Source of the DNA: a virus
Reading direction: 5' to 3' (one strand)
Virus record (IMG/VR): IMGVR_UViG_3300023236_000046
Span: 1 to 20,039 of that record
Length of the DNA stretch: 20,039 nt
Positions 6,281 to 19,368 of this stretch are shown one piece after another; the first letter of the stretch is position 1; the number at the start of each line of letters is the position of its first letter. The notes below the pieces were generated by a model. That model saw only the letters and a program-made list of their open reading frames with translations. It was not told the origin of the DNA and made no database searches. Made by a program: the position numbers and the translations under genes.

Positions 6281-6316
6281 TTGTTTGTTTTTTCCTTTCG
6301 ACGAGCTACATCTATA

Positions 6317-6325
6317 ATTATAGCA
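6317..6325 (-). promoter_or_regulatory. Extended -10 promoter for the short chaperone
   Basis: Minus strand reads TGCTATAAT, a perfect extended -10. No convincing -35 is seen 17 nt upstream (TATAAA). A start of transcription near 6310 would give a leader of about 30 nt that includes the AAAGGA ribosome binding site. Confidence 0.6.
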
Positions 6326-6340
6326 TAGCTGGATTATCTT

Positions 6341-7018
6341 TTATAGCTTTTTGTAGTCGAGGCCCATCCCAATTCCAAAGCCAGCTTTAGCAGCAGTTTG
6401 TCCCTGCAAAGCCAAAACGTCATTTGGATCCGATGTTCCTCCACCACTGAATACCCTTGCTTTCATTTCTTCCCAAGCATTATTCTTTCGGTTGTTCTTA
6501 TCTAGATCTACCCCTTGAATTGCGGCAAGAAATTTTTTCTCTTGGTAATCGATGTCTCTCTTAGAAGAAAGTATAGCAGTTATTTCTGGCATTGACAAGG
6601 AGGACTCCAGCTCTTCGTAGTCTTTCCATATACCCAGTAAAAATACCTCAGACTCTAAGCCGACCAAGTCTAGTGTTTTCCAAGTCTCGCCGCTGCTTTG
6701 GGCCTGCTCTTTAACTGGCTCGCTTTTATCTTCGTTAACTTTAATTCCTGCAGCAATATCAATTATCTTGTATACCGTTGGCAGGTCTAGATTGTCTTCT
6801 AAGTCTTCTATTGTTTTAATAGACGGATAGTACTGTTTCATTGCTATCCTTGCACACTCAGAAAGAACTCCTACGGCATCTTCGTTATCTGAAATACTGT
6901 CTAGCTTTTCAAAAGCCTCCATAAACTCTCTTAAGAATTTAATCTTCAATGGCGTAATATATACCTCGGTGTTATCTACCAGTTTAATTGTTGTTGACTC
7001 ATATACCATGGTTGCCAT
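6341..7018 (-). CDS. Long tail assembly chaperone (fused G-T type)
   Basis: A 225-residue protein. Residues 1-97 are the same domain as the short chaperone downstream (PLKIKFLREFM, IAMKQY, LDLPTVYKI). After a short linker (about 98-115) comes a second domain with EVFLLGIWKDYEELE, LSMPEI, EKKFLAAIQGVDLD and WEEMKARVFSGG, resembling the T part of G-T chaperones of actinophages. In most siphoviruses that part is reached only by ribosomal frameshifting; here it is in frame from the start. ATG 7018 was preferred over the TTG at 7060 because the extra 14 codons lie inside the preceding terminator and upstream of the predicted transcription start. ATG 7009 is a possible alternative. No Shine-Dalgarno sequence; the promoter -10 ends 6 nt before the ATG, so a leaderless mRNA is likely. 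Family call is good; the exact role split between the two paralogues is inference. Confidence 0.83.
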   Translation of the reverse strand: MATMVYESTTIKLVDNTEVYITPLKIKFLREFMEAFEKLDSISDNEDAVGVLSECARIAMKQYYPSIKTIEDLEDNLDLPTVYKIIDIAAGIKVNEDKSEPVKEQAQSSGETWKTLDLVGLESEVFLLGIWKDYEELESSLSMPEITAILSSKRDIDYQEKKFLAAIQGVDLDKNNRKNNAWEEMKARVFSGGGTSDPNDVLALQGQTAAKAGFGIGMGLDYKKL

Positions 7019-7024
7019 TACTCT

Positions 7025-7053
7025 AGTATAGCAAAATAAAATCGCCCTGGCTA
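7025..7053 (-). promoter_or_regulatory. Extended -10 promoter of the long chaperone, leaderless
   Basis: Minus strand has TGCTATACT at 7033-7025, six nt before ATG 7018. With the usual 6-7 nt from the -10 to the start of transcription, the mRNA would begin on or next to the ATG. A 4/6 match to a -35 (TAGCCA, 7053-7048) sits 17 nt upstream, inside the terminator hairpin of the previous gene. Confidence 0.65.
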
Positions 7054-7066
7054 ATGCCAAGGCGAT
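7033..7066 (-). terminator. Rho-independent terminator after the major tail protein
   Basis: On the minus strand ATCGCCTTGGC (7066-7056), loop ATTA, then GCCAGGGCGAT (7051-7041): an 11-bp stem with one G-U pair, followed at once by TTTATTTT (7040-7033). It begins 27 nt after the tail-protein stop codon. The T tract runs into the promoter of the next gene. Confidence 0.85.
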
Positions 7067-7092
7067 CTTATTGTTATTAAGTTGTTGCGGTA

Positions 7093-7749
7093 TTAGCTAC
7101 CAGCTGGGATGGTACGGTCCACAATCTGTCCGTAGGATGCGGAGGCATCTGCGGGGAGAAGTCTAAACGATACCTCGAACATTGTTGGCTCGTCGCGCTT
7201 AGCTGATACGGTAACGCTCTCAATTGAGAGTGCACGGTATGCAACATAAATACGCTCGATCTGGTCACCAAGTGCACAGTCTCCTGTACCTGGGCCAACC
7301 GCTACCAAGCCACGCTCGACAGCACACTCTCCAATGTCACCGGCGGACATGTTCATTACTGGGTTACCAATAGCGAATCCGGCTGTAGACGTTGCGAGGT
7401 CTGCATCTTTACCGGCGAGGGCAAAGAGAAGATTCTCTAGAGTGGACTCAGCAAATGCTGTGTTTAGATTAACCTGCATACCTTGCTTGTAGAGTTTAGC
7501 TACGTCAAGGAGCTGGTCAACCTGGACCTCACCAAAGTCGGGCTGGAAAACAATTTCCAAACCGTTCATGGTGTACCCAACGTTACGAAAATCTGTGTCC
7601 GTTGATAGTGTTTCACGGAAAGATACATCGTCAATAACGTCTGGCAGGTCTGCTTCAGAAAGCTCGGAAGCTCCTGCAGCTGGCTCGTATGTAAAGAGTG
7701 CTGCTGCACCAACAATAATGTTAGCACTTGATCCTCTTGAATATGCCAT
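7093..7749 (-). CDS. Major tail (tube) protein
   Basis: A 218-residue protein between the connector genes and the chaperone/tape measure genes, the usual place of the tail-tube subunit. It starts MAYSRGSSANIIVGAAALF, is rich in short beta-like stretches and in small and acidic residues, and ends with a section reading FEVSFRLLPADASASYGQIV, consistent with tail-tube proteins. Strong expression is implied by its own promoter, a GAGGTG ribosome binding site 7 nt before ATG 7749 and a clean terminator after the stop. Assignment rests on position, size and expression signals; no catalytic motif is expected. A contractile phage would have a sheath gene beside it and none is present. Confidence 0.82.
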   Translation of the reverse strand: MAYSRGSSANIIVGAAALFTYEPAAGASELSEADLPDVIDDVSFRETLSTDTDFRNVGYTMNGLEIVFQPDFGEVQVDQLLDVAKLYKQGMQVNLNTAFAESTLENLLFALAGKDADLATSTAGFAIGNPVMNMSAGDIGECAVERGLVAVGPGTGDCALGDQIERIYVAYRALSIESVTVSAKRDEPTMFEVSFRLLPADASASYGQIVDRTIPAGS

Positions 7750-7756
7750 TTTTTTT

Positions 7757-7762
7757 CACCTC
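7757..7762 (-). promoter_or_regulatory. Strong ribosome binding site of the major tail protein
   Basis: Minus strand GAGGTG followed by seven A residues and ATG 7749; an A-only spacer of optimal length, in line with high translation. Confidence 0.75.
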
Positions 7763-7799
7763 TTTCTTGTGTTAGAAATGGGCGCGTTTCCTCGTTATA

Positions 7800-7808
7800 A
7801 GTATAACA
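7800..7808 (-). promoter_or_regulatory. Extended -10 promoter for the major tail protein
   Basis: Minus strand TGTTATACT. Predicted transcription start near 7793 gives a leader of about 44 nt. No good -35 at the normal distance. It lies in the 75-nt gap after the tail terminator gene. Confidence 0.6.
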
Positions 7809-7824
7809 GCCGTTTTACAATATT

Positions 7825-8445
7825 TTAAGATTCTTCTGGTGGTACATTGAGGTACCTGGAAACAGGAGATGGGTTAAAGTCTGGAGCATGATAGCAATAG
7901 TCGATGATTATCTTATTCCCAAAATAAGTTTTTGCTGTAGCAAAATCTATAATGTCCCTAGTCTCTTCTAGCTGAAAAACTTTGGTATTATGAAAGTATG
8001 GAAGAAGAAAGTCTAACCCATCGAAATCTACGGTCTTAGGTTCGGTGCCTGGAGACTGCTCGGCTTTCTTCGCAATCCAGTAGTTAAGCTCCTCAGCTGA
8101 CTCATCTCCTCTATCTAATAAATTATAAATCATATCAGTTGTTTCAAACAAAATCCCTGCTTGAACTGCGTCTGTTAGGGACCCGTTCTTGTAAAGATAA
8201 TACAGCACCTGCTCGTCTTTCTTATGAGGAAAGGGGCCACGACTCATTCTGAACATTCTTTCGTATACCGCAAATGGCTGGTCTTCGTTAGCCTGGGGAA
8301 AGCCCTCATACAAAGCCTGAATATCGGTAGGGGTTGATGGAACAAAAAACATCGGCATACCAAAATAATCTGGCAAAACCTCTTCAATTTTTTCTGCTAA
8401 AAATTTATTTATAAAAACTGCTGGGTTTGAAACTGGTCTGTGCAT
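7825..8445 (-). CDS. Probable tail terminator / tail completion protein
   Basis: A 206-residue protein of the head-tail junction block, last before the tail-tube gene, where siphoviruses normally encode the tail terminator that caps the tube. The open frame extends to an ATG at 8508, but that start overlaps the upstream gene by 62 nt; ATG 8445 (MHRPVSNPAVFINKF) sits one nt after the upstream stop and has AAGAAGG about 9 nt before it, so it was chosen. The sequence is mixed alpha/beta with an N-terminal helix (FINKFLAEKIEEVLPDYFG) and a C-terminal YLNVPPEES. No motif proves the function; the call comes mostly from gene order and could equally be another neck component. Confidence 0.55.
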   Translation of the reverse strand: MHRPVSNPAVFINKFLAEKIEEVLPDYFGMPMFFVPSTPTDIQALYEGFPQANEDQPFAVYERMFRMSRGPFPHKKDEQVLYYLYKNGSLTDAVQAGILFETTDMIYNLLDRGDESAEELNYWIAKKAEQSPGTEPKTVDFDGLDFLLPYFHNTKVFQLEETRDIIDFATAKTYFGNKIIIDYCYHAPDFNPSPVSRYLNVPPEES

Positions 8446-8446
8446 G

Positions 8447-9118
8447 TTATCCTGCCTTCTTAGATATCCACTTGTAGCCGACACTATAGCCAGCGGACCT
8501 TCCACCATGTTTTCCTCTATTAAGATTTCTCTTAAATGGTACTGGATTATTTAGGTGATCAAGTATCCCTGTTGTTCTTAAAAAAGATTGCTTAAAATAT
8601 ATATTAAAGAAAGCATCAAAGGCTCTTTCAAATCCCCCCTCTGCATCCTGACCTCCTGGATCTGTTATAGTAATTGGTTTTTTAGTAAAAACCTGTTTTT
8701 CATTATCGTTAAAAGAAAGAACTTCTGAGGATACCGGCCTAATAGTTACAGGAATTCCATTTTCTATTATTTGAGCTTTGTTATAAAATGGAACTTTTGA
8801 TCCACTTTTAATACTTACGGATTGCCTGAAAGTAGAGTTAAAAGAAAGACCTATCTGATTGCTAATATAATTAATGTCAAATAGTCTTGCTGCTGGGCTT
8901 CCTGTCTGGTACCACTCATATACATGGTGCAATGCGGTTGGGTTTACTCTTGCGTTTGCATCAATAAAATCTTTGATACCCTCAACAACCTCTACTCCAA
9001 TATTGCCCAACAAGGCAGTCTTCCCCTGATTCACACCTTCAATAAAACCTGTAGAGTAATTAACAATATTGTTTAAATCTTTTGCAAACTGTTTGTTATT
9101 AAATTTTACGACAATCAT
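8447..9118 (-). CDS. HK97 gp10-like neck / tail completion protein
   Basis: A 223-residue protein with an N-terminal helical part (FAKDLNNIVNYSTGFIEGV) and a middle containing ALHHVYEWYQTGSPAARLF, reminiscent of the HK97 gp10 family that links the connector to the tail. The C-terminus is basic (KRNLNRGKHGGRS). The gene starts by a TAATG overlap with the head closure gene; AGGGG lies 8 nt before the ATG inside a small inverted repeat (9125-9138). Order after the adaptor and head closure genes fits. Function is inferred from position and loose similarity. Confidence 0.6.
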   Translation of the reverse strand: MIVVKFNNKQFAKDLNNIVNYSTGFIEGVNQGKTALLGNIGVEVVEGIKDFIDANARVNPTALHHVYEWYQTGSPAARLFDINYISNQIGLSFNSTFRQSVSIKSGSKVPFYNKAQIIENGIPVTIRPVSSEVLSFNDNEKQVFTKKPITITDPGGQDAEGGFERAFDAFFNIYFKQSFLRTTGILDHLNNPVPFKRNLNRGKHGGRSAGYSVGYKWISKKAG

Positions 9119-9564
9119 TATAGAATCCCCTGATTCTCTGATCTACGCAGCACTACCGTGTAGTGTTCAATTTTTCTAAACGGATTTATGAATGGTTGCT
9201 GTGTAGCAATTTCAAAGACAGTACCCTGTCCTTTTCTTTTCCCAGAGCTTTCAGAATAGTACAAAGTTTCGTCTGTATGCCTGATGTTTGTAATAAGAAT
9301 ATTTGTAAGACCATTTTCTTCTTGGGAATCTGCAATTCTCAAGTCTGTTCTTACCCTTGCAATAAGTAAAGACTCTTGGGTTAAGTCTATGTTTACAATA
9401 AGCTCTTCTTTTGTTTCTGCTCCAGCACGAATAAAGTTACCGGCTATAGTCCTGTCCAAAAGCCAGCTTTTAGATATTGCACCATATGCTCCCGGTTCGA
9501 TAACGGGATGGTATACATCTGCCAACATTGGAAACTTAAAGCTTGTAAGCTCACAGCTAACCAT
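9118..9564 (-). CDS. Putative head closure (stopper) protein
   Basis: A 148-residue, beta-rich protein placed right after the helical head-tail adaptor, the standard position of head closure proteins such as SPP1 gp16, which seal the portal channel after packaging. The start of the mature part (MLADVYHPVIEPGAYGAI) looks like the opening strand and loop of that family. ATG 9564 overlaps the upstream stop as TAATG and has GGAG 7 nt before it; an internal Met13 is a possible alternative start. The stop overlaps the next ATG the same way, so the set is translationally coupled. Confidence 0.6.
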   Translation of the reverse strand: MVSCELTSFKFPMLADVYHPVIEPGAYGAISKSWLLDRTIAGNFIRAGAETKEELIVNIDLTQESLLIARVRTDLRIADSQEENGLTNILITNIRHTDETLYYSESSGKRKGQGTVFEIATQQPFINPFRKIEHYTVVLRRSENQGIL

Positions 9565-10442
9565 TACAGAACTCCGATGATTCGGATTGATTTTGCATAC
9601 TTAGACAGAATCTTATCCACTATCATATTGCCAGTTCCCTCAAAAACCCTATCGTCAAATTTAATCTTAAATTGATCAGTGTTGTAGTCTTTAATATATC
9701 TTCCAGCATAATCTAGGTTGTTGCACTTAATGTCTTCAACCAGCAATTCTGCGGCTCTTATAATTTCTGAGGGGACCTTCTTGTATCCAACTTCTAAATG
9801 AATTGTATAATCGAATGTTTTTGCGAATCCACGGTAACCAAATGTCATGTCCCACAAATCAGACATTGCTTGCGGTAGGACCAAGTTGGCTCCTTCGGCC
9901 CTATTGATTTGACCGTTATAGTCAATAGTGATTGCGGTCTTGTCGTCGGTTAGCTTATATAACATAGACGCATTATCCAAGTCTGACGAGTCATACATTA
10001 AAACATTGTTTTCATAAAGTTTGTTTAGTTTCTTGACGTTAAGCCACATGGGAAGATAGTCTGCACCGAGTCCGACTATATCTATGACTCTTTTCTTGTA
10101 ATAAAATCCTTCTATTACGACAGAGTCTATAATTGCTCTGGCTAGCTCTTCATGCCTCGTGTACTCTGCTACCTCGCTAAAATTTGAGGCTATCTTATTT
10201 GGGTCTACGTATGGTCTTACCACGGTAAAGAAATGCTCTGATCCATCTACAACAACTCTATATTCACTATCATAGTGACTAGAGAAAGAAACAGTTATTT
10301 CAGAATCACCGTTAGAGGTTGTGGCTCCAGAAATACTAGATGAATCTGAAAGATTTAAAATAGTATAATTATACTCTGTAGCAGCTTCAGAAACCTCAAT
10401 AGTAGCTTGGGGCTCTGAAGAAGCAATTCTTAATATTTCCAT
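9564..10442 (-). CDS. Head-tail adaptor (connector) with extra N-terminal beta domain
   Basis: A 292-residue protein. From about residue 75 it is mostly helical, with a C-terminal section (IIRAAELLVEDIKCNNL, then YNTDQFKIKF and GNMIVDKILSKY) that resembles adaptor proteins of the HK97 gp6/SPP1 gp15 type, which form the ring below the portal. Residues 1-74 form a Ser/Thr-rich, strand-like segment ending in FFTVVRPYVDP that looks like a small Ig-like or beta-sandwich addition; usual adaptors are about 100-200 residues, so this one is long. It starts 3 nt after the upstream stop, without a clear ribosome binding site, so re-initiation is likely. Function is supported by position and the C-terminal pattern. 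Confidence 0.62.
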   Translation of the reverse strand: MEILRIASSEPQATIEVSEAATEYNYTILNLSDSSSISGATTSNGDSEITVSFSSHYDSEYRVVVDGSEHFFTVVRPYVDPNKIASNFSEVAEYTRHEELARAIIDSVVIEGFYYKKRVIDIVGLGADYLPMWLNVKKLNKLYENNVLMYDSSDLDNASMLYKLTDDKTAITIDYNGQINRAEGANLVLPQAMSDLWDMTFGYRGFAKTFDYTIHLEVGYKKVPSEIIRAAELLVEDIKCNNLDYAGRYIKDYNTDQFKIKFDDRVFEGTGNMIVDKILSKYAKSIRIIGVL

Positions 10443-10445
10443 GTA

Positions 10446-10868
10446 TTACAAACCAAACTCTGATGCAACCTCTTCTGGCGTAGCCTCTCTCACATGGTTA
10501 CGAGTAAGCCATTTGTCTGCCTGATCTTTGGTTACAATATTATAGCCCTTGGAAATTTTTCCTACACCTATCCAAGATACATTGCGATCAGAGTAAATAG
10601 CTACGGTTGGCTTTTTGTGCCCCGCTTTTGCGGATGGCTTTTGGGTTTCCCCATTTGTTCCTATTACGGATGACTTGTTTTGTGTTTTTAAAAATGGAGT
10701 TTTGTCTTCTGTTGATCTTTCCTTAGAAGAAATTGCAGAAGCTCTATTTTTCTCTTGTAATTCTTTTACCTGCTTTGTGTATTTTTCAGCTAGCTCTTTT
10801 GGAATAAGAGCTTCTCCATCTTGAAGTTTGGCGAGTTGTATATCCGCAGATACCTCTGTTTTTGCCAT
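10446..10868 (-). CDS. Virion-locus protein of unknown function (140 aa), after the capsid gene
   Basis: Function not recognised. ATG 10868 (MAKTEVSADI) was chosen over the in-frame ATG 10895 because AAAGG sits 7 nt before it and the longer start overlaps the promoter. Residues 12-45 hold LAKLQDGEALIPKELAEKY followed by a charged helix; residues about 46-85 are Ser/Lys/Thr-rich and look disordered; residues about 86-140 look like a compact domain (VAIYSDRNVSWIGVGKISKG and LTRNHVREATPEEVASEFG). It is first in the connector operon, between capsid and adaptor genes, so a head-decoration, capsid-binding or connector role is plausible but unproven. The N-terminal motif resembles one in the tape measure protein. 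Confidence 0.75.
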   Translation of the reverse strand: MAKTEVSADIQLAKLQDGEALIPKELAEKYTKQVKELQEKNRASAISSKERSTEDKTPFLKTQNKSSVIGTNGETQKPSAKAGHKKPTVAIYSDRNVSWIGVGKISKGYNIVTKDQADKWLTRNHVREATPEEVASEFGL

Positions 10869-10894
10869 AATAAAACCTTTCTGTTCTACATACA

Positions 10895-10903
10895 ATTATA
10901 TCA
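10895..10903 (-). promoter_or_regulatory. Extended -10 promoter of the connector operon
   Basis: Minus strand TGATATAAT between the post-capsid hairpin and ATG 10868. Predicted start near 10888 leaves a leader of about 20 nt containing the AAAGG ribosome binding site. No good -35; that region is the tail of the hairpin. Confidence 0.62.
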
Positions 10904-10913
10904 GAATAATAAT

Positions 10914-10951
10914 GAATAAGGGGGCGGAGACGATGTCCCCACCCCCTATTC
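10914..10951 (-). terminator. Strong hairpin after the major capsid gene (probable terminator)
   Basis: Minus strand arms GAATAGGGGGTGGGGAC (10951-10935) and GTCTCCGCCCCCTTATTC (10931-10914) pair over 17 bp with one bulge and two G-U pairs around a 3-nt loop. It is followed by ATTATTATTC rather than a pure T run, so termination may be partial; it could also protect the capsid mRNA 3' end. Confidence 0.7.
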
Positions 10952-10967
10952 GGGTATTACCTAAGAA

Positions 10968-12095
10968 TTAGGAATCTGAAGCTGCATCGGCAAATGCGAT
11001 GGCGTCTTCTTCTTCCAACTGAATACCAAAGCGAACGAACACTGTGTATTCAATGGTGTCTTTCTTAGCAACATATTCACGGTTTACTGTGATGTCTCTC
11101 TGGAAGCCCCAAATACGGTTTGCGGGGAAGGTTAGGTCCACGAAACCATCTGGGTAGTAAGGAACCTCCATGACGTCGATACCCAAGACACGAGTGGTGC
11201 GAGCTGCACCGAATGTCTGACCAACACCGTCAAGGTATGACTGAGTGTTTGCCTGAGTATTTCCGTTGGTTCCTAGTGCTTCAGCGATAGCATCTGACAG
11301 AGTACCGTTGTTCTTTACAATGCCCTGGAATGCGTCGGTACCTGCGTAGAACTTAAGGTTGTTCTTAAGTGCGCGATACTTACGAGGCATTGCCAAGATA
11401 ATGTCCTGCATGACGTCTGGAGTCCAAGCGTCATCGGTTACGGTTACAACAGACTCGTGAGCATCGCCACCAGTCTTTTCTTTGTTAACGAACCCGTCCA
11501 TAATAGACAAGAAGTTACCGGTTGCACCGTCACCGTTAATGGCTAGGTCTTCAATGTCATTTGCAAATGCATTTGTCATCAAACGAACCAGGTGGTCTTC
11601 TAGAGCAGCACCTTCGACGTTGTCTTCTAGCGCTTCTGCTGTAACCTCCCAGTCAAGACGAATCTTACGAGTTGTAAGTTCTACCTTGCTGAATGTTGCA
11701 CCAGAGTTGGTGTAGTCACCAATGCCTTGTGAAGCTGCACGAATAACGCGCTCTCCAACATTGACCTTTTCGAGCTCCATGGTGTTGGCACGCATAGTTA
11801 CGCGACGACCATCTTTGGCGAGAACAGTACCGTCCCAAACATAATCGATAAAACGACGTGCTTGTTCTGGACGTAGGATACCACTAGCTGCATCACCCGA
11901 AGGATTTACGGCGTTGGGTCCGGTTGTCAAACCAAACTCGGCGTTTGGAATGTTTCCTAGTGTGTTTGCACCAGGATCTGTTACTCCTCCAATGCCACCA
12001 GATGCGAATCCACCCTGGGCCTGAAAGTTACCAGGAGCAGTTGCGCCTAGTTCAGCAGCTTCACCTGGCTGATTTTTGATAATCTCTTCCGACAT
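10968..12095 (-). CDS. Major capsid protein (HK97 fold)
   Basis: A 375-residue protein that forms the icosahedral shell. It follows the protease/scaffold gene directly. The first ~75 residues are Gly/Asn/Pro-rich and look flexible (FASGGIGGVTDPGANTLG); then comes an HK97-type body with a long-helix region and the segment MTNAFANDIEDLAINGDG (about residues 173-192), typical of capsid proteins of this fold, and a C-terminal part with LGIDVMEVPYYPDG and VNREYVAKKDTIEYTVF. The N-terminus lacks a long charged delta domain, which fits a separate scaffold protein. Arginine codons are almost all CGT/CGC, unlike the AGA-rich neighbours, and the ribosome binding site is perfect, both pointing to very high expression. 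Confidence 0.92.
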   Translation of the reverse strand: MSEEIIKNQPGEAAELGATAPGNFQAQGGFASGGIGGVTDPGANTLGNIPNAEFGLTTGPNAVNPSGDAASGILRPEQARRFIDYVWDGTVLAKDGRRVTMRANTMELEKVNVGERVIRAASQGIGDYTNSGATFSKVELTTRKIRLDWEVTAEALEDNVEGAALEDHLVRLMTNAFANDIEDLAINGDGATGNFLSIMDGFVNKEKTGGDAHESVVTVTDDAWTPDVMQDIILAMPRKYRALKNNLKFYAGTDAFQGIVKNNGTLSDAIAEALGTNGNTQANTQSYLDGVGQTFGAARTTRVLGIDVMEVPYYPDGFVDLTFPANRIWGFQRDITVNREYVAKKDTIEYTVFVRFGIQLEEEDAIAFADAASDS

Positions 12096-12100
12096 TTTGT

Positions 12101-12109
12101 CACCTCCTA
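12101..12109 (-). promoter_or_regulatory. Consensus ribosome binding site of the capsid gene
   Basis: Minus strand TAGGAGGTG with AGGAGG 7 nt before ATG 12095, in a 24-nt gap after the scaffold stop. I see no promoter in that gap, so capsid mRNA probably starts upstream, at 13460 or inside the scaffold region. Confidence 0.85.
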
Positions 12110-12119
12110 AGTGATTTTG

Positions 12120-12698
12120 TTAGTTAAATAAATCGGCAGTTTTGAGGAAACGACCGCCCCATAGGGATTTTTCAACCATATCTGGTTGATCCTGCACGAT
12201 CTCGCCTAGATCGCCAGACTTGCGGAAAGCGGTGTCTTGCTCTACAGCATCGACCCTCTTTCCAAACTCATCAAATTTTTCGGTAGCAGACTGAAGATCC
12301 TGCTTGGCTGCAGTCACATCTTCAGTAATACCGCTCATTGATTTCTTCAATTCAGAGACCTGCTCGTTAAGAGACTTAATGGTTTCTGACAGATCGCTAA
12401 AGGCTGATGTAAGAGTGTTCTTGATTTCAGTTACTGTCTCTGCGACAATAGCGTCATCTGATTTTGACACCTCTTCGGTTTCTTCAGATTTGGCAACTTC
12501 TTCATTTTCTTCAAATGGAGCTTTTTCTGCCTTCTCTGCGTCTTCCTCTTCATCTTCCATTTTCTTGTCTTTTGCACTCTTCATTTCTTCTTCTGAGTGC
12601 ACAGACTTTTCAACGTTAGACTCTGTGGCATCTGCCTCTGGAGCGACCTCATCTGATTTTTCTACAACCTCTTCGAGGTTATTGGTTTCATCAGTCAT
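12120..12698 (-). CDS. Nested scaffold protein from internal in-frame start
   Basis: A 192-residue product in the same frame as the C-terminal part of the protease gene. Its ATG (MTDETNNLEEVVEKSDEV) is preceded by AAAGGAGGT, one of the best ribosome binding sites in the window, while the parent gene has none. The product is highly acidic for its first ~95 residues and then coiled-coil, ending WGGRFLKTADLFN, as expected of a capsid scaffold. Nested scaffold genes inside protease genes are known (lambda Nu3 within C). That the site is used is inference from the strength and spacing (8 nt) of the signal. Confidence 0.78.
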   Translation of the reverse strand: MTDETNNLEEVVEKSDEVAPEADATESNVEKSVHSEEEMKSAKDKKMEDEEEDAEKAEKAPFEENEEVAKSEETEEVSKSDDAIVAETVTEIKNTLTSAFSDLSETIKSLNEQVSELKKSMSGITEDVTAAKQDLQSATEKFDEFGKRVDAVEQDTAFRKSGDLGEIVQDQPDMVEKSLWGGRFLKTADLFN

Positions 12699-13457
12699 GG
12701 GGTTTACCTCCTTTGTCATCTCAATTGTATTAATGCCTTTAGCACTATCAATTAAGAACTTTATCATATCTGTTTTTTCGCTGTCATTTTTTTCAACGAA
12801 ACCTATGTTGTCCATTGGCTCACCGCTAATTGGGCTAAGCTCTTTTTCGTTAGAAGATACAGTTACAAGGCCAGACTCTTTATCCCAGAATACATTCTCT
12901 AGTTCTGTTTCTAGAGATGCAGACTTAACAACGTCTACCCCGTCAACTTTTTCAATGGAAAGAATATTTGCAAACTGATTTGCTGGATTGTCAACTAGTG
13001 AGAGCTCTACCAGGTCGTACTCTTTAACAATACGAATCTGTGCATCCATCTTCTCGTCATAAGCGTCATCCCACTTGTTCATCTTTCCGCCAATGGAAAA
13101 ACCAGAAAGAGTGCCGTCAAGAACCTTCTCCCAAGTGTCCTGTGCACCCTTAGATACGTATGCAGATACATACACGCCACTATAAAACTTTTTGCTGTCT
13201 GGATCAAAGTATTTGTCTTCTTTGAAGTTCACCATTTTACCTACCGCTGTGGGCTGGTGCATTTCTCGAATGTTACCTCTAAAACGAGTAAAGGCAGATA
13301 CGCTAGCCTCTGAGGTAACGATGTCTGCCTGTTTGTCTACGTTGTCAAGGGTCGCAAAGCCGGAGACAATGCGTCTCTCAATATCAACCTTGCTGAAGGG
13401 GACAGAGAAACGAACGTTCTCGCCTTCCGTGTCCCAATGTGATTTGAACATAGTCAT
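12120..13457 (-). CDS. Prohead serine protease fused to scaffold domain (XkdF/HK97-like protease)
   Basis: A 445-residue protein. Residues about 20-170 are a prohead maturation protease: VSGFATLDNVDKQADIV, then REMHQP with a likely catalytic His67, then LSGFSIGG with a likely nucleophile Ser121, then DLVELSLVDNPAN, the order seen in the herpes/HK97 protease fold. Residues 171-253 form a linker. Residues 254-445 are an acidic Glu/Lys/Ser-rich segment followed by a long coiled coil (about 350-420), i.e. a scaffold. The protein would be incorporated with the scaffold and cleave it during maturation. ATG 13457 follows an extended -10 by 9 nt with no ribosome binding site, so a leaderless start is expected; ATG 13451 is the alternative. 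An internal start yields the scaffold alone. Confidence 0.86.
   Translation of the reverse strand: MTMFKSHWDTEGENVRFSVPFSKVDIERRIVSGFATLDNVDKQADIVTSEASVSAFTRFRGNIREMHQPTAVGKMVNFKEDKYFDPDSKKFYSGVYVSAYVSKGAQDTWEKVLDGTLSGFSIGGKMNKWDDAYDEKMDAQIRIVKEYDLVELSLVDNPANQFANILSIEKVDGVDVVKSASLETELENVFWDKESGLVTVSSNEKELSPISGEPMDNIGFVEKNDSEKTDMIKFLIDSAKGINTIEMTKEVNPMTDETNNLEEVVEKSDEVAPEADATESNVEKSVHSEEEMKSAKDKKMEDEEEDAEKAEKAPFEENEEVAKSEETEEVSKSDDAIVAETVTEIKNTLTSAFSDLSETIKSLNEQVSELKKSMSGITEDVTAAKQDLQSATEKFDEFGKRVDAVEQDTAFRKSGDLGEIVQDQPDMVEKSLWGGRFLKTADLFN
12706..12714 (-). promoter_or_regulatory. Internal ribosome binding site for the nested scaffold
   Basis: Minus strand AAAGGAGGT inside the protease reading frame (codons around residues 249-251), 7-8 nt from ATG 12698. 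It encodes Thr-Lys-Glu-Val in frame, so the coding frame accommodates a full anti-16S match. Confidence 0.8.
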
Positions 13458-13466
13458 ACTAACTTA

Positions 13467-13495
13467 ATTATAGCATCATTTTTACAAAGTTACAA
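13467..13495 (-). promoter_or_regulatory. Promoter of the protease-scaffold gene, leaderless
   Basis: Minus strand TTGTAA (13495-13490), 17-nt spacer, and an extended -10 TGCTATAAT (13475-13467), then 9 nt to ATG 13457. This is the only promoter here with both elements in a reasonable form. A short direct repeat (TTGTAAC, TTTGTAA) covers the -35. Predicted start of transcription is 0-3 nt before the ATG. Confidence 0.7.
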
Positions 13496-13503
13496 TAAAG
13501 TAA

Positions 13504-15102
13504 CTATTCTGATGCCCGTCCCTCTCCCTGTGCATTTCTACCACTAATTGTAGCAGATCCATCGGACTGATTATTAGATCTTTCTGTGTCTCTTTCTCTG
13601 TTTTGATTTGTGTTAGCCCTAGTGTCTGTTGCTTGTCTTGGAGACATACTAAATGGTTCGTCTCCATCTTTTCTTTGAGGAAGGCCGAGAGATTCCCTAG
13701 CTTCGTTAGGTGTCATGATTTGCATCTTGACATACCGCTCAAGAATCTGTGACTGTGCAATTTCATCTGTAAGAGTTAGCTCATTAAACTTAAAGTTAAC
13801 AATGTCTGTTTTTTCTTTTACCATTTTGCCAATGATTTTTTCTAGATTCTTTTGAGCTGGTCTTGCAACCTGTTCTTTAAACGTTCTATCCTGAGCAAGA
13901 GCTGATGCAATGTTTGCGGTATCAGATCCACCAATCTTGGACAACGGAACCTGGTGTGCCATCAAGACATTGTCTCTGTTTTGCTTAGAATATTCTTTGA
14001 AGGATGCTTCCTGGATACCGCTCTCGATTGGCTCCATCTTAAATTCAACCTTGTTGCTGTCGCTATCTCCTGGAAGGGGAATGTACAGAGTTCTGTGAGA
14101 CTGACCTTTCAAGCTTGTCTGCAAGAAACGAAACATCTTGTCTTCGGCATCAGAAGAAAGCTTTGCCCCCTTAAGTGTTACAACATATCTTGGAACAGCT
14201 TTGTTTCCAAAGTAGTCAATGTTATATTGTGAAGCTAGCTGATCCCCGTGCAAAGAAGTAATAGCAGACATAATGTCTGGAATTCCATAGAATGTATTTA
14301 GAGGAGAGTATTCTTTAAAATGAATAATTTCATTTGGCCTTGCGTCAGTAGTAATGGGGTTAGGGTTCTTTGCCCCGAAGTTTCTAAAGTATACAACCTT
14401 CTGACCAATGATTTGGACATACCCATCCTTAAGTCTACGAACTCTCATTGTTGTTGCTGGTATGTGACCAAGGTAACCAATATCTCCATTTACTTTTCTA
14501 CCAACTTCAAGGTAGCCGTTTCCGGTGGCCTGAACGTCTGTATAAAATTTCATCATAGTTCCAGTAAAAGAATCATCTTGATTAAGATTCTCTAGCCAAT
14601 CTCTTAACTCAATTTTAGATCTTTCAATTCTTTTTCTTGCTCTGTCAGTAGAAGCTTCGTCAGTATTTGATTCTAGTCTTAAGACTGTTCTTTGTGAAAT
14701 TTCAAAATCATACCCAAGGCCTACAATGTTTTCTACCTTGGCATCAATAGCTGCGTGATTTGCAAATGATGTGTCATAATAGTTTGCTAGTTCGTAAAGA
14801 TTCCACGGAGGTGTAATGACGTCAAACATGCCGTAGCCATTACGGAATACGGTTCCTGGATTGATCTGATTCGACTGTGCCCCATCTTGACCGGCGGGGA
14901 CAGCTCTTGCACTCGCTAGGTAGGCATCTGTTGGCTCTACGGACTTTGCTATGCGTGAAGCTCTACGTTTAAAATTAGCATCCAAACCAGAAAAAGACTT
15001 AATGCTATCCCAAGATTGTGTAAAAGGATCTTGCTTTTTAAAGACATCCTCTTCTTTTGCCAGCTCGTCAACACTTGCCCCTATGATCCACTCGCTAGAC
15101 AT
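13504..15102 (-). CDS. Portal protein
   Basis: A 532-residue protein forming the dodecameric ring through which DNA is packaged and ejected. The body matches the phage portal (SPP1/HK97, PBSX-type) pattern: an N-terminal helical part, a wing segment with YYDTSFANHAAIDAKVENIV, then ATGNGYLEV, a central IIHFKEYSPLNTFYGIPDIM, and LMAHQVPLSKIGG followed by the stem/crown helices. The last ~60 residues are Arg/Asn/Ser-rich and probably disordered. ATG 15102 overlaps the upstream stop (TAATG) with GAGG just before it, so the portal is translated by coupling from the 126-residue gene. It ends in TAG, 46 nt before the protease gene, and that gap holds a promoter. Confidence 0.92.
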   Translation of the reverse strand: MSSEWIIGASVDELAKEEDVFKKQDPFTQSWDSIKSFSGLDANFKRRASRIAKSVEPTDAYLASARAVPAGQDGAQSNQINPGTVFRNGYGMFDVITPPWNLYELANYYDTSFANHAAIDAKVENIVGLGYDFEISQRTVLRLESNTDEASTDRARKRIERSKIELRDWLENLNQDDSFTGTMMKFYTDVQATGNGYLEVGRKVNGDIGYLGHIPATTMRVRRLKDGYVQIIGQKVVYFRNFGAKNPNPITTDARPNEIIHFKEYSPLNTFYGIPDIMSAITSLHGDQLASQYNIDYFGNKAVPRYVVTLKGAKLSSDAEDKMFRFLQTSLKGQSHRTLYIPLPGDSDSNKVEFKMEPIESGIQEASFKEYSKQNRDNVLMAHQVPLSKIGGSDTANIASALAQDRTFKEQVARPAQKNLEKIIGKMVKEKTDIVNFKFNELTLTDEIAQSQILERYVKMQIMTPNEARESLGLPQRKDGDEPFSMSPRQATDTRANTNQNRERDTERSNNQSDGSATISGRNAQGEGRASE

Positions 15103-15482
15103 TAGCCCTCGTCTCCGTATACCTGTAATGTTTTCTTTGCCGCAATAAGAGCTCCTAGATCATTCATGCTAGGAAGCAAGCCCTGAGACATTCTGTCTAC
15201 CTGCTCGCTGTGCTCTTCTTCGGAGATCTTACGCATATTGGGATAGAATACCGCTTTACCCTCTGACTGCCCCCAGTGAATGGCGGCATCTTTAAGTTCT
15301 TTTACTCTAGATTTGTCATCTCTCATTGACTCAATAGAAAGAGCATTGCCCTGACCGTCAGTAAAGGCTTTGCCATTAGGCTTGTGCCAAACATACGTTC
15401 CAAAGTTAGAAAACTTTTCCTCTACAACTTGTACTTTGGTTTCTCCGACTTGACCGGGAAATCGTGGTTTATTCCTTTTCAT
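15102..15482 (-). CDS. Small protein of unknown function preceding portal (126 aa)
   Basis: Function not recognised. The protein is hydrophilic, begins with a basic MKRNKPRFPGQ, has GTYVWHKPNGKAFTDGQGN near residues 28-46, a charged middle (MRDDKSRVKELKDAAIHWG) and a helical C-terminus ending KKTLQVYGDEG. No signal peptide or membrane segment. ATG 15482 was chosen over the upstream GTG 15488 because the promoter -10 ends at 15490, so the GTG would lie before the transcription start. There is no ribosome binding site; the mRNA should be leaderless. It is the first gene of a two-gene unit with portal, which suggests a head or packaging role, but nothing in the sequence proves it. Confidence 0.78.
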   Translation of the reverse strand: MKRNKPRFPGQVGETKVQVVEEKFSNFGTYVWHKPNGKAFTDGQGNALSIESMRDDKSRVKELKDAAIHWGQSEGKAVFYPNMRKISEEEHSEQVDRMSQGLLPSMNDLGALIAAKKTLQVYGDEG

Positions 15483-15489
15483 AACCACT

Positions 15490-15498
15490 AGTATACCA
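15490..15498 (-). promoter_or_regulatory. Extended -10 promoter of the 126-aa/portal unit, leaderless
   Basis: Minus strand TGGTATACT, then 7 nt to ATG 15482. It sits in the 18-nt gap after the large LamG-type gene. No clear -35. Confidence 0.65.
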
Positions 15499-15500
15499 TA

Positions 15501-18500
15501 TTAAACAGGAGTGGTCGTACTCTGTGTCCATCCCAAACCATTGAATATACTATACTGATAGTCTTTAAGAGTAAACAGTTGATCGCTTTCTGAAATTGTT
15601 CTGTTTGTTCCGGTATATATATCATATATATTTCCAGCATCAAGTTCTTCCCTCAGGGTTGTTGACAAGAACAGCACCTCCTGCCAGTCAAAAGCTTCTC
15701 CTACAGGAACAGTCTCTTCACCAATGACCTCTTTACCGGCCCAGTATCCCCAATCAATAGGGTCTCCCAAAAAACTCCTAACTGCAAACCACTGCCTAAA
15801 ACCAAAACGCTCTTCGTCGTCTGCAAGTGTTGTTTGATAAAAGCTAAAATTGTTAAACATTATTGGGCTTGTTATTCTGAGTGCTCCGACAAAGCCTCCG
15901 ATATCAAGAAATCCTGGGAAGGATAAACCTATGGCATTCCAGGTATTAGAATAAAGAACTGGTCTTTTAGACGGCACACCATTATTAAAGAAAACAAGGT
16001 TACCCGATAGTTGGTTTGTTCTTGCATTCAGCGCATAGATTTGACCACGTTTTCTATTTGCACTATCTGCTATTAAGAAAAACTTGATGTAAACATCTCC
16101 AGACTCTATTTCAAATATTTTTACAGGAACTTCTGGGAACAGATCTTCTCCATACTTTAGGGAGATCTGTAGAGAGCCAATCTTGAAAAATGAAGATGCG
16201 TTTGTATTGAGGGGAATAGAGATACCGGCATTATTTCTATTATCATATGTTGTCCTAACTTCTATACCGCTATTTGAGGTGTTGTATAGGTATGGGCTAC
16301 TTCCTTTATAGATTGCAAATGGGGGAGCTGATCTATAGTCGAAGTACCGACCAACCTTTCTAAAGGGTACTAGGTTGGTTCCAAACTTTGTTCCAATCTT
16401 ATTAGGGGAGTTGCTGAATGCTTGAGATGATATTTGTAAAGATCTTGTTGTAACTGGGCTAAACCTTATACCGTCTATTTCGTATTCTAAATAAAGATTT
16501 ATTGAAATATTTTTAAAATTTACATTTGGAGGTGGGTAAACAATAGTTCCGTCAACAACCTCATATTTTGTATTGAGCCAACTTGAGTTTGGTCTTACGA
16601 TACCTGAAGAGTCTAGCAATTGCTTGCTGGTAAAATTATCCTCTACAGAGTTAGAACCATCTCTTAGGTATTGGAATGCTACATAGGCTTTTACTAAATT
16701 CTGAGATGTGTCATACTTGTTAGCAGAATTAAAAATCTTCATATTGGGATAATCTAGGTTTACCTGCAAAAAGTCAACCCTGGATTGCTTCCTTCCAAAA
16801 GCGTTTACAATTTCCTTGGAGAAGTAAGATAGTGGAACATAGTCTTCCCAGAAAGAATTAACGGCAATGTCTAACATAAACATCCCCATGTTTATTTTTG
16901 GCAAAAGGGTATAGGTTGCTATGTGGTCAATAGCCCTTATTGCTTGGAAGTCGTAGGGGTCTCCGCCGTCCAGGGCAAGTTCCCAGTAGTCTGGGTCGTT
17001 GCCAAAATATTCATCCCCCGCATCATATATACTGGGGCCAAAATGCTCAAACACATTTTCGTAATCTACGGGTATCCCATCTTCATTAAATAGATGGGAT
17101 ATTTTTTTAAGATTTCTTGCACTAGTAAAACCAATCCTATAAATATACCCACTAAAGGTATTAGCTAGATTCTCTGATCCAGCAATGTATATTGCTAAAT
17201 TTTGCCTGCTTCCAAAAAAGTTTCCTAACTCTCTTCCATTTTGCCTTACAAATCTTGGCAAATGTATTCCAGCCATAAACTTTTTTCCAACAGAGTGTCC
17301 TGGAGCGGTATAGAATATAGTATCCTTAAAAGAACCGTTGGCTAACTTAGTTATAAAAGAATAATAAATAGTTGAGTCATAAGCATAGATCAAGTCTGTG
17401 TCTGCTACTGCTTCTATAGTTGTAGCTTGATTTGCCTGAACTTGATAAGAAAGCGAAGTATCCGATATTACGAATATTTGATAAAATCCTGTGGGGACTG
17501 TTTGAGAGCCTTCAATAAGAATCTTCATACCAGTCTTGAGTCCATGCCTTATTCCAGATACGGTTACTGTTTGTCCTAACTGACTAACTGTTATTGAGTT
17601 ATCTAAAAATGGACCTATTGGGTTACCTCTGTAATACACCTCTACTGTGTTAGAAGTTGTAGAGTTTGTTACTTGAAATAAAGTTTGTTTACTTAAGGAT
17701 ATTTCCTTTGATTCAAATACCCCATAGAATGATCTTGTTTGTTCTTGCAAAAAGTTCATGTTGGGAAACGATAGATGTCCCCCAGTGCTATCCCAAGAAC
17801 CGTTGGGCTTTAGAGTAATTTTTAAATTTTCTAAATCTTGTGACGCTTCTAGATCAGAGAGCCATCTGGACTCTGTCTTGTCTGTGAACCTAACCGTTGG
17901 GGTTGGGTGATTTGGGGGGCCTAGTGCGTCTCGCTCTGTTACAAGATTTTCCAAGCTTCCATTAGCCCATCTGCTGGATGATGGAAAATAAAAGTTTTTT
18001 GGATACTTGGCAAATGGGTAATCTACAAAAACAGAAGAGGAAGAGTCTAGCCCTTTAATATCTACGGGAACCTGAACACCTTGGCCATATATCCATCTTC
18101 TTTTTGCAACTATGGCTGCTACCTCGTATGGGTAAACTCCAACGCAATCTATTTGAATAAGTGGGACATCTTCGTAAGCATAGAAACCTAGCCAGTCTTG
18201 ATCTAATCCATCCTCTATACTGGCTGGGAAGGCGTATGACGAGGGATCGAGGTCTAGTTCAAGCAATATGGCACCGTTAATTATAAGCTCCCCCTTAGTC
18301 GCTGAGAGCCTTATATCAACAAGCATGGGCCTATCCCATTCTCTAATAAAGTGTGACACAACCTGATTCCCAATTCTTAATTTTAAGAATGGTCCTTCTA
18401 CATAAAGTCCGTCAGTAGACTGGATCGGGCCAAAGATTCTTCTAGCAACTATGGCAGAAGATTTTATCTTAATCCAGAACTCAGCAGTGAGTCTGTTTAG

Positions 18501-19352
18501 CTGACCTGACCTATTCATAAATCCAAAACCTGGAACAATCAAGGAGGGAGAGTTTGCTTTAGGAGTAAGGTAGGTTGCATTTTGAGACCCAAAGACTAAG
18601 GGTAACCCATAGTTTCTAGCTACCAGGGCGTTATCATCTGCAATGTAGTATCCATTTGTGCCCGGCAAGCCGTAAGGCTGTGCCTCTATTCCTTTTGTTG
18701 CTTGTATTGCAATGCTATCTGGAACATCTATAAGCTGTGCACCAAATGATCTAAGCTGAAATTCTTCTGCCCATTGACCAGCGGTAATACCGTTAATTGA
18801 AAATTCGTATGAAGAGTTTTGATCTTCATAATAAATTTCAAATATTAGCTCTAAGTCTTGAAAGCTTGTCGGCAAAATAAAAGTTTCCGATACCGCTGCC
18901 CATGCCAGTGCGGAGCTCAAAGCCGCCGCTTTAATTACTTCATTTACTTCTGAGGTATCTGGATCTGTATACCTAAATCCAACTCTAAAGTCTAGAATTT
19001 TGTCAAATGAATAAACATATGCAGATGCAGAAAATGTTTGCTGTTCTGCGTTTACGTCTGCTGGATTTATAGCAAATGGGCTAGTAAAAGTGACAAGACC
19101 GTTATTTGTTGGATCAGTAATAACTCCATTGGCAAACCTGTCGGAGAATGGAAAACTTGGGGGAATAAGAGAAAACACCTGATCATCTCTTGCATTTACA
19201 ATGCTTGTGACACCGGTGCTTGTCCAATTACTCAATTGTTGATCTGAATCAGACAAGAAAGATATGTAGTCGGCCTTGTCGTCCAATGCCCACAAACCTA
19301 GAGGGTGCTCAGAAAAAACCTTAGTGGCATATAGATTTAAAGGATTAGCCAT
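15501..19352 (-). CDS. Large LamG/concanavalin A-like virion protein (probable adhesin or appendage)
   Basis: A 1283-residue, strand-rich protein. Residues 1-12 (MANPLNLYATKV) start a region ending in HPLGLWALDDKAD, a pattern often seen at the front of LamG-type proteins. Residues about 287-425 form a concanavalin A-like jellyroll (LTAEFWIKIK, then DRPMLVDIRLS, GELIINGAILLEL, VGVYPYEVAAIVAKRRW). A second jellyroll-like stretch spans about 500-760 and is interrupted near 585-647 by a small beta domain (VTVSGIRHGLKTGMKILIEG). A third strand-rich part lies near 1030-1190. No signal peptide, no coiled coil and no catalytic motif found. Such proteins are structural and often bind glycans at the host surface. 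ATG 19352 is 7 nt from an extended -10 and lacks a ribosome binding site. Its place before the portal gene is unusual. Confidence 0.8.
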   Translation of the reverse strand: MANPLNLYATKVFSEHPLGLWALDDKADYISFLSDSDQQLSNWTSTGVTSIVNARDDQVFSLIPPSFPFSDRFANGVITDPTNNGLVTFTSPFAINPADVNAEQQTFSASAYVYSFDKILDFRVGFRYTDPDTSEVNEVIKAAALSSALAWAAVSETFILPTSFQDLELIFEIYYEDQNSSYEFSINGITAGQWAEEFQLRSFGAQLIDVPDSIAIQATKGIEAQPYGLPGTNGYYIADDNALVARNYGLPLVFGSQNATYLTPKANSPSLIVPGFGFMNRSGQLNRLTAEFWIKIKSSAIVARRIFGPIQSTDGLYVEGPFLKLRIGNQVVSHFIREWDRPMLVDIRLSATKGELIINGAILLELDLDPSSYAFPASIEDGLDQDWLGFYAYEDVPLIQIDCVGVYPYEVAAIVAKRRWIYGQGVQVPVDIKGLDSSSSVFVDYPFAKYPKNFYFPSSSRWANGSLENLVTERDALGPPNHPTPTVRFTDKTESRWLSDLEASQDLENLKITLKPNGSWDSTGGHLSFPNMNFLQEQTRSFYGVFESKEISLSKQTLFQVTNSTTSNTVEVYYRGNPIGPFLDNSITVSQLGQTVTVSGIRHGLKTGMKILIEGSQTVPTGFYQIFVISDTSLSYQVQANQATTIEAVADTDLIYAYDSTIYYSFITKLANGSFKDTIFYTAPGHSVGKKFMAGIHLPRFVRQNGRELGNFFGSRQNLAIYIAGSENLANTFSGYIYRIGFTSARNLKKISHLFNEDGIPVDYENVFEHFGPSIYDAGDEYFGNDPDYWELALDGGDPYDFQAIRAIDHIATYTLLPKINMGMFMLDIAVNSFWEDYVPLSYFSKEIVNAFGRKQSRVDFLQVNLDYPNMKIFNSANKYDTSQNLVKAYVAFQYLRDGSNSVEDNFTSKQLLDSSGIVRPNSSWLNTKYEVVDGTIVYPPPNVNFKNISINLYLEYEIDGIRFSPVTTRSLQISSQAFSNSPNKIGTKFGTNLVPFRKVGRYFDYRSAPPFAIYKGSSPYLYNTSNSGIEVRTTYDNRNNAGISIPLNTNASSFFKIGSLQISLKYGEDLFPEVPVKIFEIESGDVYIKFFLIADSANRKRGQIYALNARTNQLSGNLVFFNNGVPSKRPVLYSNTWNAIGLSFPGFLDIGGFVGALRITSPIMFNNFSFYQTTLADDEERFGFRQWFAVRSFLGDPIDWGYWAGKEVIGEETVPVGEAFDWQEVLFLSTTLREELDAGNIYDIYTGTNRTISESDQLFTLKDYQYSIFNGLGWTQSTTTPV

Positions 19353-19359
19353 ATATACA

Positions 19360-19368
19360 ATTTTATCA
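19360..19368 (-). promoter_or_regulatory. Extended -10 promoter of the LamG-type gene, leaderless
   Basis: Minus strand TGATAAAAT, then 7 nt (TGTATAT) to ATG 19352. A start 6-7 nt after the -10 falls on the ATG. No good -35. Confidence 0.58.

Follow-up and report, generated by a model that had tools for sequence, protein, structure and literature searches.

In a 20,039-base stretch of a virus record (IMGVR_UViG_3300023236_000046, from the IMG/VR collection), hereafter the window, several phage structural genes begin with an ATG codon that has no Shine-Dalgarno (SD) sequence and that lies a few nucleotides (nt) downstream from an extended -10 promoter box. This arrangement raises the question of whether the messages of such genes start at the start codon itself, and of what this would mean for a pair of tail assembly chaperone genes, of which the long one carries a box close to its ATG and the short one a more distant box followed by an SD site. 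The comparisons described below indicate that many messages probably do start at the start codon. Very probably, the window comes from the structural region of a large tailed phage that infects freshwater actinobacteria and that uses many extended -10 promoters read by the host and two modes of translation initiation. By these means, the phage may also control the chaperone ratio.

A first-pass annotation had reported seven extended -10 boxes, four ending 6 to 9 nt before an ATG devoid of an SD sequence and three followed by a leader with an SD-like motif. All seven were found on the minus strand at the positions, distances and leader motifs described (Table 1). The form TGnTATAmT is exact in six of them, and the box at 19360 (TGATAAAAT) has one mismatch. 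The gaps, 465 nt in all, contain TGNTATAMT 6 times on the coding strand (12.9 per kb). In the roughly 19.6 kb that are coding, this strand has a single copy (0.05 per kb), located within the long chaperone gene (6570-6578). The opposite strand has no occurrence in gaps and one in coding sequence. Equal frequencies in gaps and in coding regions, which the annotation had considered to be incompatible with its proposal, were thus not observed. Comparison with shuffled gaps, which it had also suggested, placed the boxes far above expectation, since a slightly looser pattern (TGNTATANT) was obtained on average 0.17 times, and at most 3 times, in dinucleotide-shuffled gaps of the window (5000 shuffles). 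A loose pattern allowing one mismatch was at chance level over the entire window (78 occurrences versus 68 expected) and was not retained. The signal therefore resides in the placement of the boxes rather than in their total number.

Placement was evaluated in 80 related viral loci (0.91 Mb) by counts anchored on the motif, in which every downstream ATG was recorded and no start call was needed. The box was found 260 times on the sense strand versus 17 times on the antisense strand. Downstream ATGs were located at a spacer (number of nt between the box and the start codon) of 6 in 40 cases, 7 in 38, 8 in none, and 9 in 5, all of them opening reading frames of at least 50 codons. Beyond spacer 9, the ATGs formed a broad hump at about 17-27 nt. 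Fourteen ATGs at spacer 1 are at least partly accounted for by an in-frame ATG ahead of the spacer-7 ATG in the gene encoding a protein of 126 amino acids (aa) (ATGGTTATG). In 12 large records (64-123 kb), the box followed by 5 to 8 nt and ATG was found 128 times, versus 5 times for the reversed pattern, and was present in every record.

Counts anchored on genes were obtained for six large relatives, as whole records, and for the window, with our own gene-calling script based on codon usage. We considered 442 ATG genes preceded either by 15 nt or more of gap sequence or by a neighbor on the opposite strand, 216 without and 226 with an SD-like site. The pattern TGnTAnnnT preceded the SD-less genes at spacer 6 in 46 cases, 7 in 13, 8 in 10, and 9 in 12. 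In 2000 mononucleotide shuffles, such cases numbered 1.8 on average and 9 at most, against the 81 observed. Before the genes with an SD-like site, the pattern was found once at spacer 6, never at 7-14 (a scarcity that is partly built in, see below), and 95 times at 15-36. A -35 box (at least 5 of 6 matches) accompanied 1 of 74 leaderless-type boxes and 20 of 82 boxes followed by a leader. The window and its relatives thus display a TANNNT-type -10 box about 10-12 nt before the start codon, as do the TA-led genes of actinobacteria. An SD site is lacking in the window genes concerned and in the long chaperone gene of relatives, as well as in the genome-wide counts, there partly by construction. 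These comparisons support the annotation's view that the structural region contains many small promoters and relies on two modes of translation initiation, both being predicted features conserved across relatives.

The same script was applied to control phages. One SD-less gap gene with a TG box was detected in phage lambda, none in 50 kb of T4, and none in phiC31, which had a single TANNNT lacking TG at spacer 7. A direct pattern scan of lambda gave three matches, including the start of cI, the textbook leaderless mRNA. According to PMC3160421, leaderless initiation was found in lambda. In the Streptomyces phage LukeCage, a weak test detected TANNNT at spacer 6-7 in 4 of 23 SD-less gap genes (about 0.7 expected) and in 4 of 37 genes with an SD site (about 1.8 expected).

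The long chaperone has 225 aa and the short one 105 aa. The two are paralogs with 48% identity over 97 residues, and both match the protein family phrog_10504. As in lambda gpG and gpGT, an N domain is shared by the two forms and an additional T domain is present in the long one. The genes lie between those for the tail tube and the tape measure, as indicated by gene order in the window and by synteny with LukeCage. The long gene is a single open frame, without a programmed frameshift, both in the window and in each of the 17 rows of an alignment. Long and short forms are encoded by separate tandem genes in all 43 loci that hold both. In a phylogenetic tree, the short copies formed one clade (support of 100/99) and the long copies were grouped on one side of a weakly supported branch (88/0; 90% of bootstraps). 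LukeCage resembles lambda in having a single G gene (gp58, annotated as tail assembly chaperone) and a T part that lies in a different frame. In at least 30 Streptomyces phage rows among the matches listed, the chaperone was likewise found in two pieces at one place per record. In these related phages, the protein is apparently made by frameshifting. Because of homology and synteny with LukeCage gp58 and gp59, phrog_10504 and phrog_10474, both listed as of unknown function, are the G-like and T-like chaperone domains, respectively.

The two chaperone genes differ consistently in their upstream regions. The box was present at spacer 6 in all 44 long-gene loci, one of which has GTG as the start codon. 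In these 44 upstream regions, the fixed columns of the motif were invariant and the spacer letters varied (0.45-0.70). All 43 short genes had a box at 25-38 nt followed by an SD site; a 44th row (L079) was a long gene according to its upstream letters and was dropped. A second set was picked with the long protein alone and comprised 73 contigs after removal, from 80, of the 7 shared with the first set (54 of the 73 long upstream regions being distinct). In this set, the box preceded the long gene at spacer 6-9 in 65 of 73 contigs, including 49 at spacer 6, and the remaining 8, read by eye, had TANNNT without TG at spacer 6. The short gene was SD-led with a distant box in 72 of 72 cases, no short gene being detected in one contig. 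These counts are not independent since the loci are related.

Another possibility is that the start codons were misplaced and that translation truly begins further downstream, after an ordinary SD site. Automatic choice of starts is uncertain, and several of our own start calls were wrong. An in-frame ATG or GTG with an SD-like site was however found within the first 40 codons of the long chaperone gene in only 1 of 44 loci, and conservation at the three positions of codons 2-15 (0.70/0.83/0.58) agrees with a coding sequence that begins at the ATG. The motif-anchored counts, in addition, do not depend on start calls. We consider misplaced starts to be very improbable.

Strong hairpins were detected ahead of the long gene's promoter, with a mean stability of -23.1 kcal/mol versus -3.8 kcal/mol ahead of the short gene's promoter, the former being stronger in all 43 loci. 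Together with the boxes, these features suggest the following mechanism. Host RNA polymerase of the sigma-70 type would transcribe short units from many extended -10 promoters. A -10 box ending 6-9 nt before ATG or GTG would make transcription begin on the start codon itself or no more than about 3 nt from it, and the resulting leaderless or nearly leaderless mRNA would enter the ordinary leaderless translation pathway of the host. A box located about 15-40 nt away would produce a leader carrying an SD site. Where a strong hairpin stands next to a promoter, as it does following the capsid gene and ahead of the long chaperone gene, it would close the preceding unit. Lacking an SD site, a leaderless gene would depend on its own promoter for translation, and upstream readthrough would therefore add little.

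In the case of the chaperones, an old duplication has given a long form, combining G and T in one frame, which would be leaderless and behind a terminator, and a short form, with G only, which would be expressed from its own promoter with an SD leader and additionally by readthrough from the promoter of the long gene. The short form would be in excess because its mRNA would originate from two promoters and carry an SD site, thereby doing the job performed in lambda by programmed frameshifting, which yields the two forms at 30:1 (PMC5009743). It is plausible that the leaderless/SD split of the pair serves, as the annotation put it, to set protein amounts, and the long-to-short ratio may be set by two initiation modes that replace frameshifting. 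In its full form, the proposal is that frameshifting, a widely conserved device for this chaperone, was replaced by duplication in widespread lake actinophages, the ratio being fixed by a terminator-insulated leaderless long gene and an SD-led short gene. We advance it tentatively, our belief and our doubt being nearly balanced.

The hairpins are also relevant to an alternative in which the boxes would be weak or late-activated promoters providing minor internal starts, most structural mRNA being readthrough from one distant promoter. Many structural genes do have an SD site without a promoter of their own, and therefore depend on readthrough. Against this, strong hairpins end units downstream from the capsid gene and ahead of the long chaperone gene, leaderless-type genes lack the SD site required for translation from readthrough mRNA, and box and spacer length are conserved while the spacer letters drift. 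A single distant promoter is for these reasons improbable, and short units with their own promoters remain our preferred reading.

The arrangement extends well beyond the chaperones. In the six large records and the window, 94 of 968 genes, belonging to 49 families, were of the leaderless type, on both strands, with 12-18 such genes in each large record. Judged by appearance, the families include oxygenase-, carbamoyltransferase-, and kinase-like proteins. The designation of these genes as late, proposed by the annotation, is thus too narrow, since the leaderless type is spread throughout the larger genomes and also precedes genes that do not look structural.

Individual families differ in the constancy of their initiation mode. 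Among 18 distinct upstream regions of the gene labeled LamG-type, 14 were of the leaderless type (13 at spacer 9 and 1 at spacer 6) and 4 had a more distant box, 3 of these being called SD-led; in L046, L022, and L054, an SD-like leader lies between the box and the ATG. Leaderless and SD forms were mixed among relatives in several other families, indicating that the mode can change. For the 126-aa gene, the spacer was 7 in 26 of 39 distinct upstream regions. The 13 odd rows were kept in the counts, and mostly resulted from the choice of another in-frame start by the script, as did some protease rows. The 126-aa gene was leaderless-type in 7 of 7 cases in a survey of gene families. The protease gene of relatives retains a -10 box, often lacking the TG, with a spacer of about 9-10 or, where the start codon is GTG, of 6. 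The capsid gene had an SD site and no promoter in 34 of 35 distinct relatives, and the gene at 10446-10868 had a distant box and an SD site in 12 of 16 distinct upstream regions.

These differences are pertinent to a further alternative, according to which leaderless starts are real but merely reflect a compact promoter layout, the split having no role in ratios and the chaperone pair being fixed by descent. Many of the genes in leaderless families are indeed unrelated and show no evident stoichiometry, and other families are equally fixed, such as the 126-aa gene and a 135-aa family (11 of 11). Leaderless translation can moreover be robust, as Shell et al. (2015, PMC4633059) describe it in mycobacteria as 'comparably robust' to leadered translation. 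The evidence on its strength is nevertheless divided: in Mycobacterium smegmatis, it is weaker than with one strong leader and similar to another (PMC7148126). Against this alternative, the mode changed in the LamG-type gene and in several families, yet no switch was seen for the chaperones (44 + 73 long and 43 + 72 short genes), and even the 8 odd long-gene rows retained a -10 element at spacer 6. A compact layout without a role in ratios is a serious possibility, somewhat doubtful in our judgment.

To identify the reader of the boxes, 13 records were searched for the Pfam families Sigma70_r2 and Sigma70_r4, and neither domain was found. A phage sigma factor was thus not retained as the reader, although a highly divergent one could escape a search with two families. 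By contrast, a sigma-70 factor is present in the 'Ca. Planktophila' phages that have been isolated (PMC10202952). WhiB, a mark of actinobacteria, was present in 9 of the 13 records. Since no sigma factor was found and WhiB is frequent, host RNA polymerase most likely reads the boxes. Searching genome collections with the capsid protein gave a single match, a contig binned in a metagenome-assembled genome (MAG) of a freshwater Actinomycetota. In 178 kb of this candidate host MAG, TANNNT was present at spacer 6 in 20 and at spacer 7 in 4 of 59 SD-less gap genes, and at these spacers in 0 of 19 genes with an SD site. This gene-anchored test replaced a scan for TANNNT, spacer and ATG over the whole MAG, which was uninformative because the control was higher (987 + 978 against 711 + 717). 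The geometry in the candidate host agrees with the annotation's assignment of leaderless starts to an actinobacterial setting. The box geometry would thus be that of the candidate host, with a stronger -10 in the phage.

Several points weigh against the interpretation developed here. Part of the scarcity of close boxes before genes with an SD site follows from the way this class is defined, since the SD window is occupied whenever a box lies at spacer 6-9. The 95 distant boxes and the spacer-6 peak are free of this effect. Gene calls were made with our own script. Spacers of 9-10 for the protease and LamG-type genes in most relatives may leave leaders of 2-4 nt. The initiation mode alone need not lower the amount of the long form, because leaderless translation is reported to be about as robust as leadered translation in mycobacteria (PMC4633059). 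The MAG is only a candidate host, its assignment resting on one 4.9-kb contig in the bin, and the TG extension is present in just 1 of its 59 SD-less gap genes.

Parts of this arrangement have precedents. According to Zheng et al. (2011, PMC3160421) and Shell et al. (2015, PMC4633059), TA-led actinobacterial genes and mycobacterial leaderless mRNAs similarly have TANNNT about 12 nt before the start, no SD site, and ATG or GTG at the predicted 5' end of the mRNA. The present genes differ from TA-led genes by belonging to phage genomes and by having a near-consensus TGnTATAmT, in contrast to the loose TANNNT of the candidate host MAG. Cluster O mycobacteriophages (the Corndog group) also have host-type SigA-like promoters with a predicted +1 on the start codon; 8-9 predicted promoters with -35 boxes are described there, a few of them leaderless (PMC4351075). 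The large records of the window's group have 12-18 leaderless-type genes each, mostly without a -35 box. The chaperone genes resemble lambda gpG/gpGT and the split-frame genes of the LukeCage type by their place between tail protein and tape measure genes and by their short G and long G + T forms, with homologous domains in LukeCage. They differ in being two paralogous genes without frameshift, each with its own promoter and mode.

Two paralogous genes in place of a frameshift are also found in T4-like phages, whose tail assembly chaperones are reportedly made by a mechanism other than frameshifting, as Vladimirov et al. are said to have described in 2022. T4 gp26 and gp51, which we take to be these chaperone genes, align at E = 1.7e-6. 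A separate origin of the T4-like pair seems likely, and we know of no leaderless/SD split in it. Chaperones without frameshift also occur in some Microbacterium EA subclusters, and single predicted leaderless phage genes are on record (PMC7302621 for the former; PMC4351075 and PMC11373665 for the latter). Thus, leaderless actinobacterial genes, single predicted leaderless actinophage genes, and frameshift-free chaperones are already known. A literature search, with subscription papers mostly outside its scope, retrieved no chaperone pair split between leaderless and SD modes, no phage group with a comparable extent of leaderless starts, and no work combining tail assembly chaperone, frameshift, and gene duplication. 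The new part seems to be the leaderless/SD-split chaperone pair.

If the proposal is correct, leaderless translation would be, beyond being tolerated, a working part of the control of virion assembly in widespread lake viruses. The duplicated chaperone would provide a direct test of the long-standing question of whether a phage needs frameshifting itself or only the resulting protein ratio. In practice, a box at spacer 6 makes it possible to assign the starts of numerous genes in uncultured phages of this kind, and phrog_10504 and phrog_10474 can be named as G-like and T-like chaperone domains.

The window (G+C content of 42.5%) encodes tailed-phage structural proteins, and all genes of the called set are on the minus strand. 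In the direction of transcription, they are a partial gene, the LamG-type gene (1283 aa), the 126-aa gene, and those for portal, head maturation protease, major capsid protein, five small proteins, a tail protein with an Ig domain, the long and short chaperones, and the tape measure. The portal was named by synteny with LukeCage, the protease and the Ig-domain tail protein by PHROG, and the tape measure by size and place. A Pfam scan of 10 window proteins detected no family, and 'LamG-type' is an unconfirmed label of the annotation. The capsid protein has approximately 42% identity over 77% of its length with those of Streptomyces phages including LukeCage (filed under Stanwilliamsviridae), and up to 91% identity with those of uncultured IMG/VR contigs. 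Relative to the window, a 20-kb fragment, LukeCage displays 40% identity for the chaperone and a similar gene order.

Table 1. Promoter, leader, terminator-like, and chaperone features of the window.
Feature	Position	Strand	Context
Extended -10 box TGATAAAAT	19360..19368	-	7 nt before ATG of LamG-type gene 15501-19352; no SD
Extended -10 box TGGTATACT	15490..15498	-	7 nt before ATG of 126-aa gene 15102-15482; no SD
Extended -10 box TGCTATAAT	13467..13475	-	9 nt before ATG of head maturation protease gene 12120-13457; no SD
SD sequence AGGAGGTG	12101..12108	-	Major capsid gene 10968-12095, without promoter of its own
Terminator-like hairpin	10914..10951	-	3' of capsid gene, directly before next promoter; -28.7 kcal/mol, z -5.1
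Extended -10 box TGATATAAT	10895..10903	-	Leader with AAAGG (10876-10880), gene 10446-10868
Extended -10 box TGTTATACT	7800..7808	-	Leader with GAGGTG (7757-7762), tail gene 7093-7749, PHROG 'protein with Ig domain'
Terminator-like hairpin	7035..7072	-	T tract enters next -10 box; -25.7 kcal/mol, z -8.9
Extended -10 box TGCTATACT	7025..7033	-	6 nt before ATG of long chaperone gene; no SD
Long tail assembly chaperone, 225 aa	6341..7018	-	G-like N domain and T-like C domain joined in one frame
Extended -10 box TGCTATAAT	6317..6325	-	36 nt before ATG of short chaperone gene; AAAGGA (6293-6298) in between
Short tail assembly chaperone, 105 aa	5963..6280	-	N domain only, 48% identical to that of the long chaperone

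Additional observations concern individual features. ATG-TAG start-stop pairs are present at 6306-6311 and 10886-10891, 3-5 nt past two of the -10 boxes followed by a leader. A role as regulatory mini-reading frames was considered, none was seen upstream from the short chaperone gene of relatives, and the pairs were treated as due to chance. The combination of hairpin, promoter, and SD leader that follows the capsid gene (10914-10951 and 10895-10903) recurs in large relatives, and a similar set is present upstream from LukeCage gp52. In L036, L050, L047, and L026, the start codon of the protease gene may be a GTG separated from the -10 box by a spacer of 6. The 135-aa family (G001-G005, family of G005:89774-90181) is multicopy in several records.

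In LukeCage, TATAAT is found exactly 6 nt before the ATG of gp46, gp53, and gp63 (L143, upstream of 7444, 14438, and 28589), in two cases behind terminator-like hairpins. The placement of a box at the ATG may therefore predate the freshwater group. For gp47 (L143, 9232-9262), the LukeCage counterpart in place of the 126-aa gene, the annotated start may be five codons late, as an in-frame ATG is present 6 nt past a TATGAT box.

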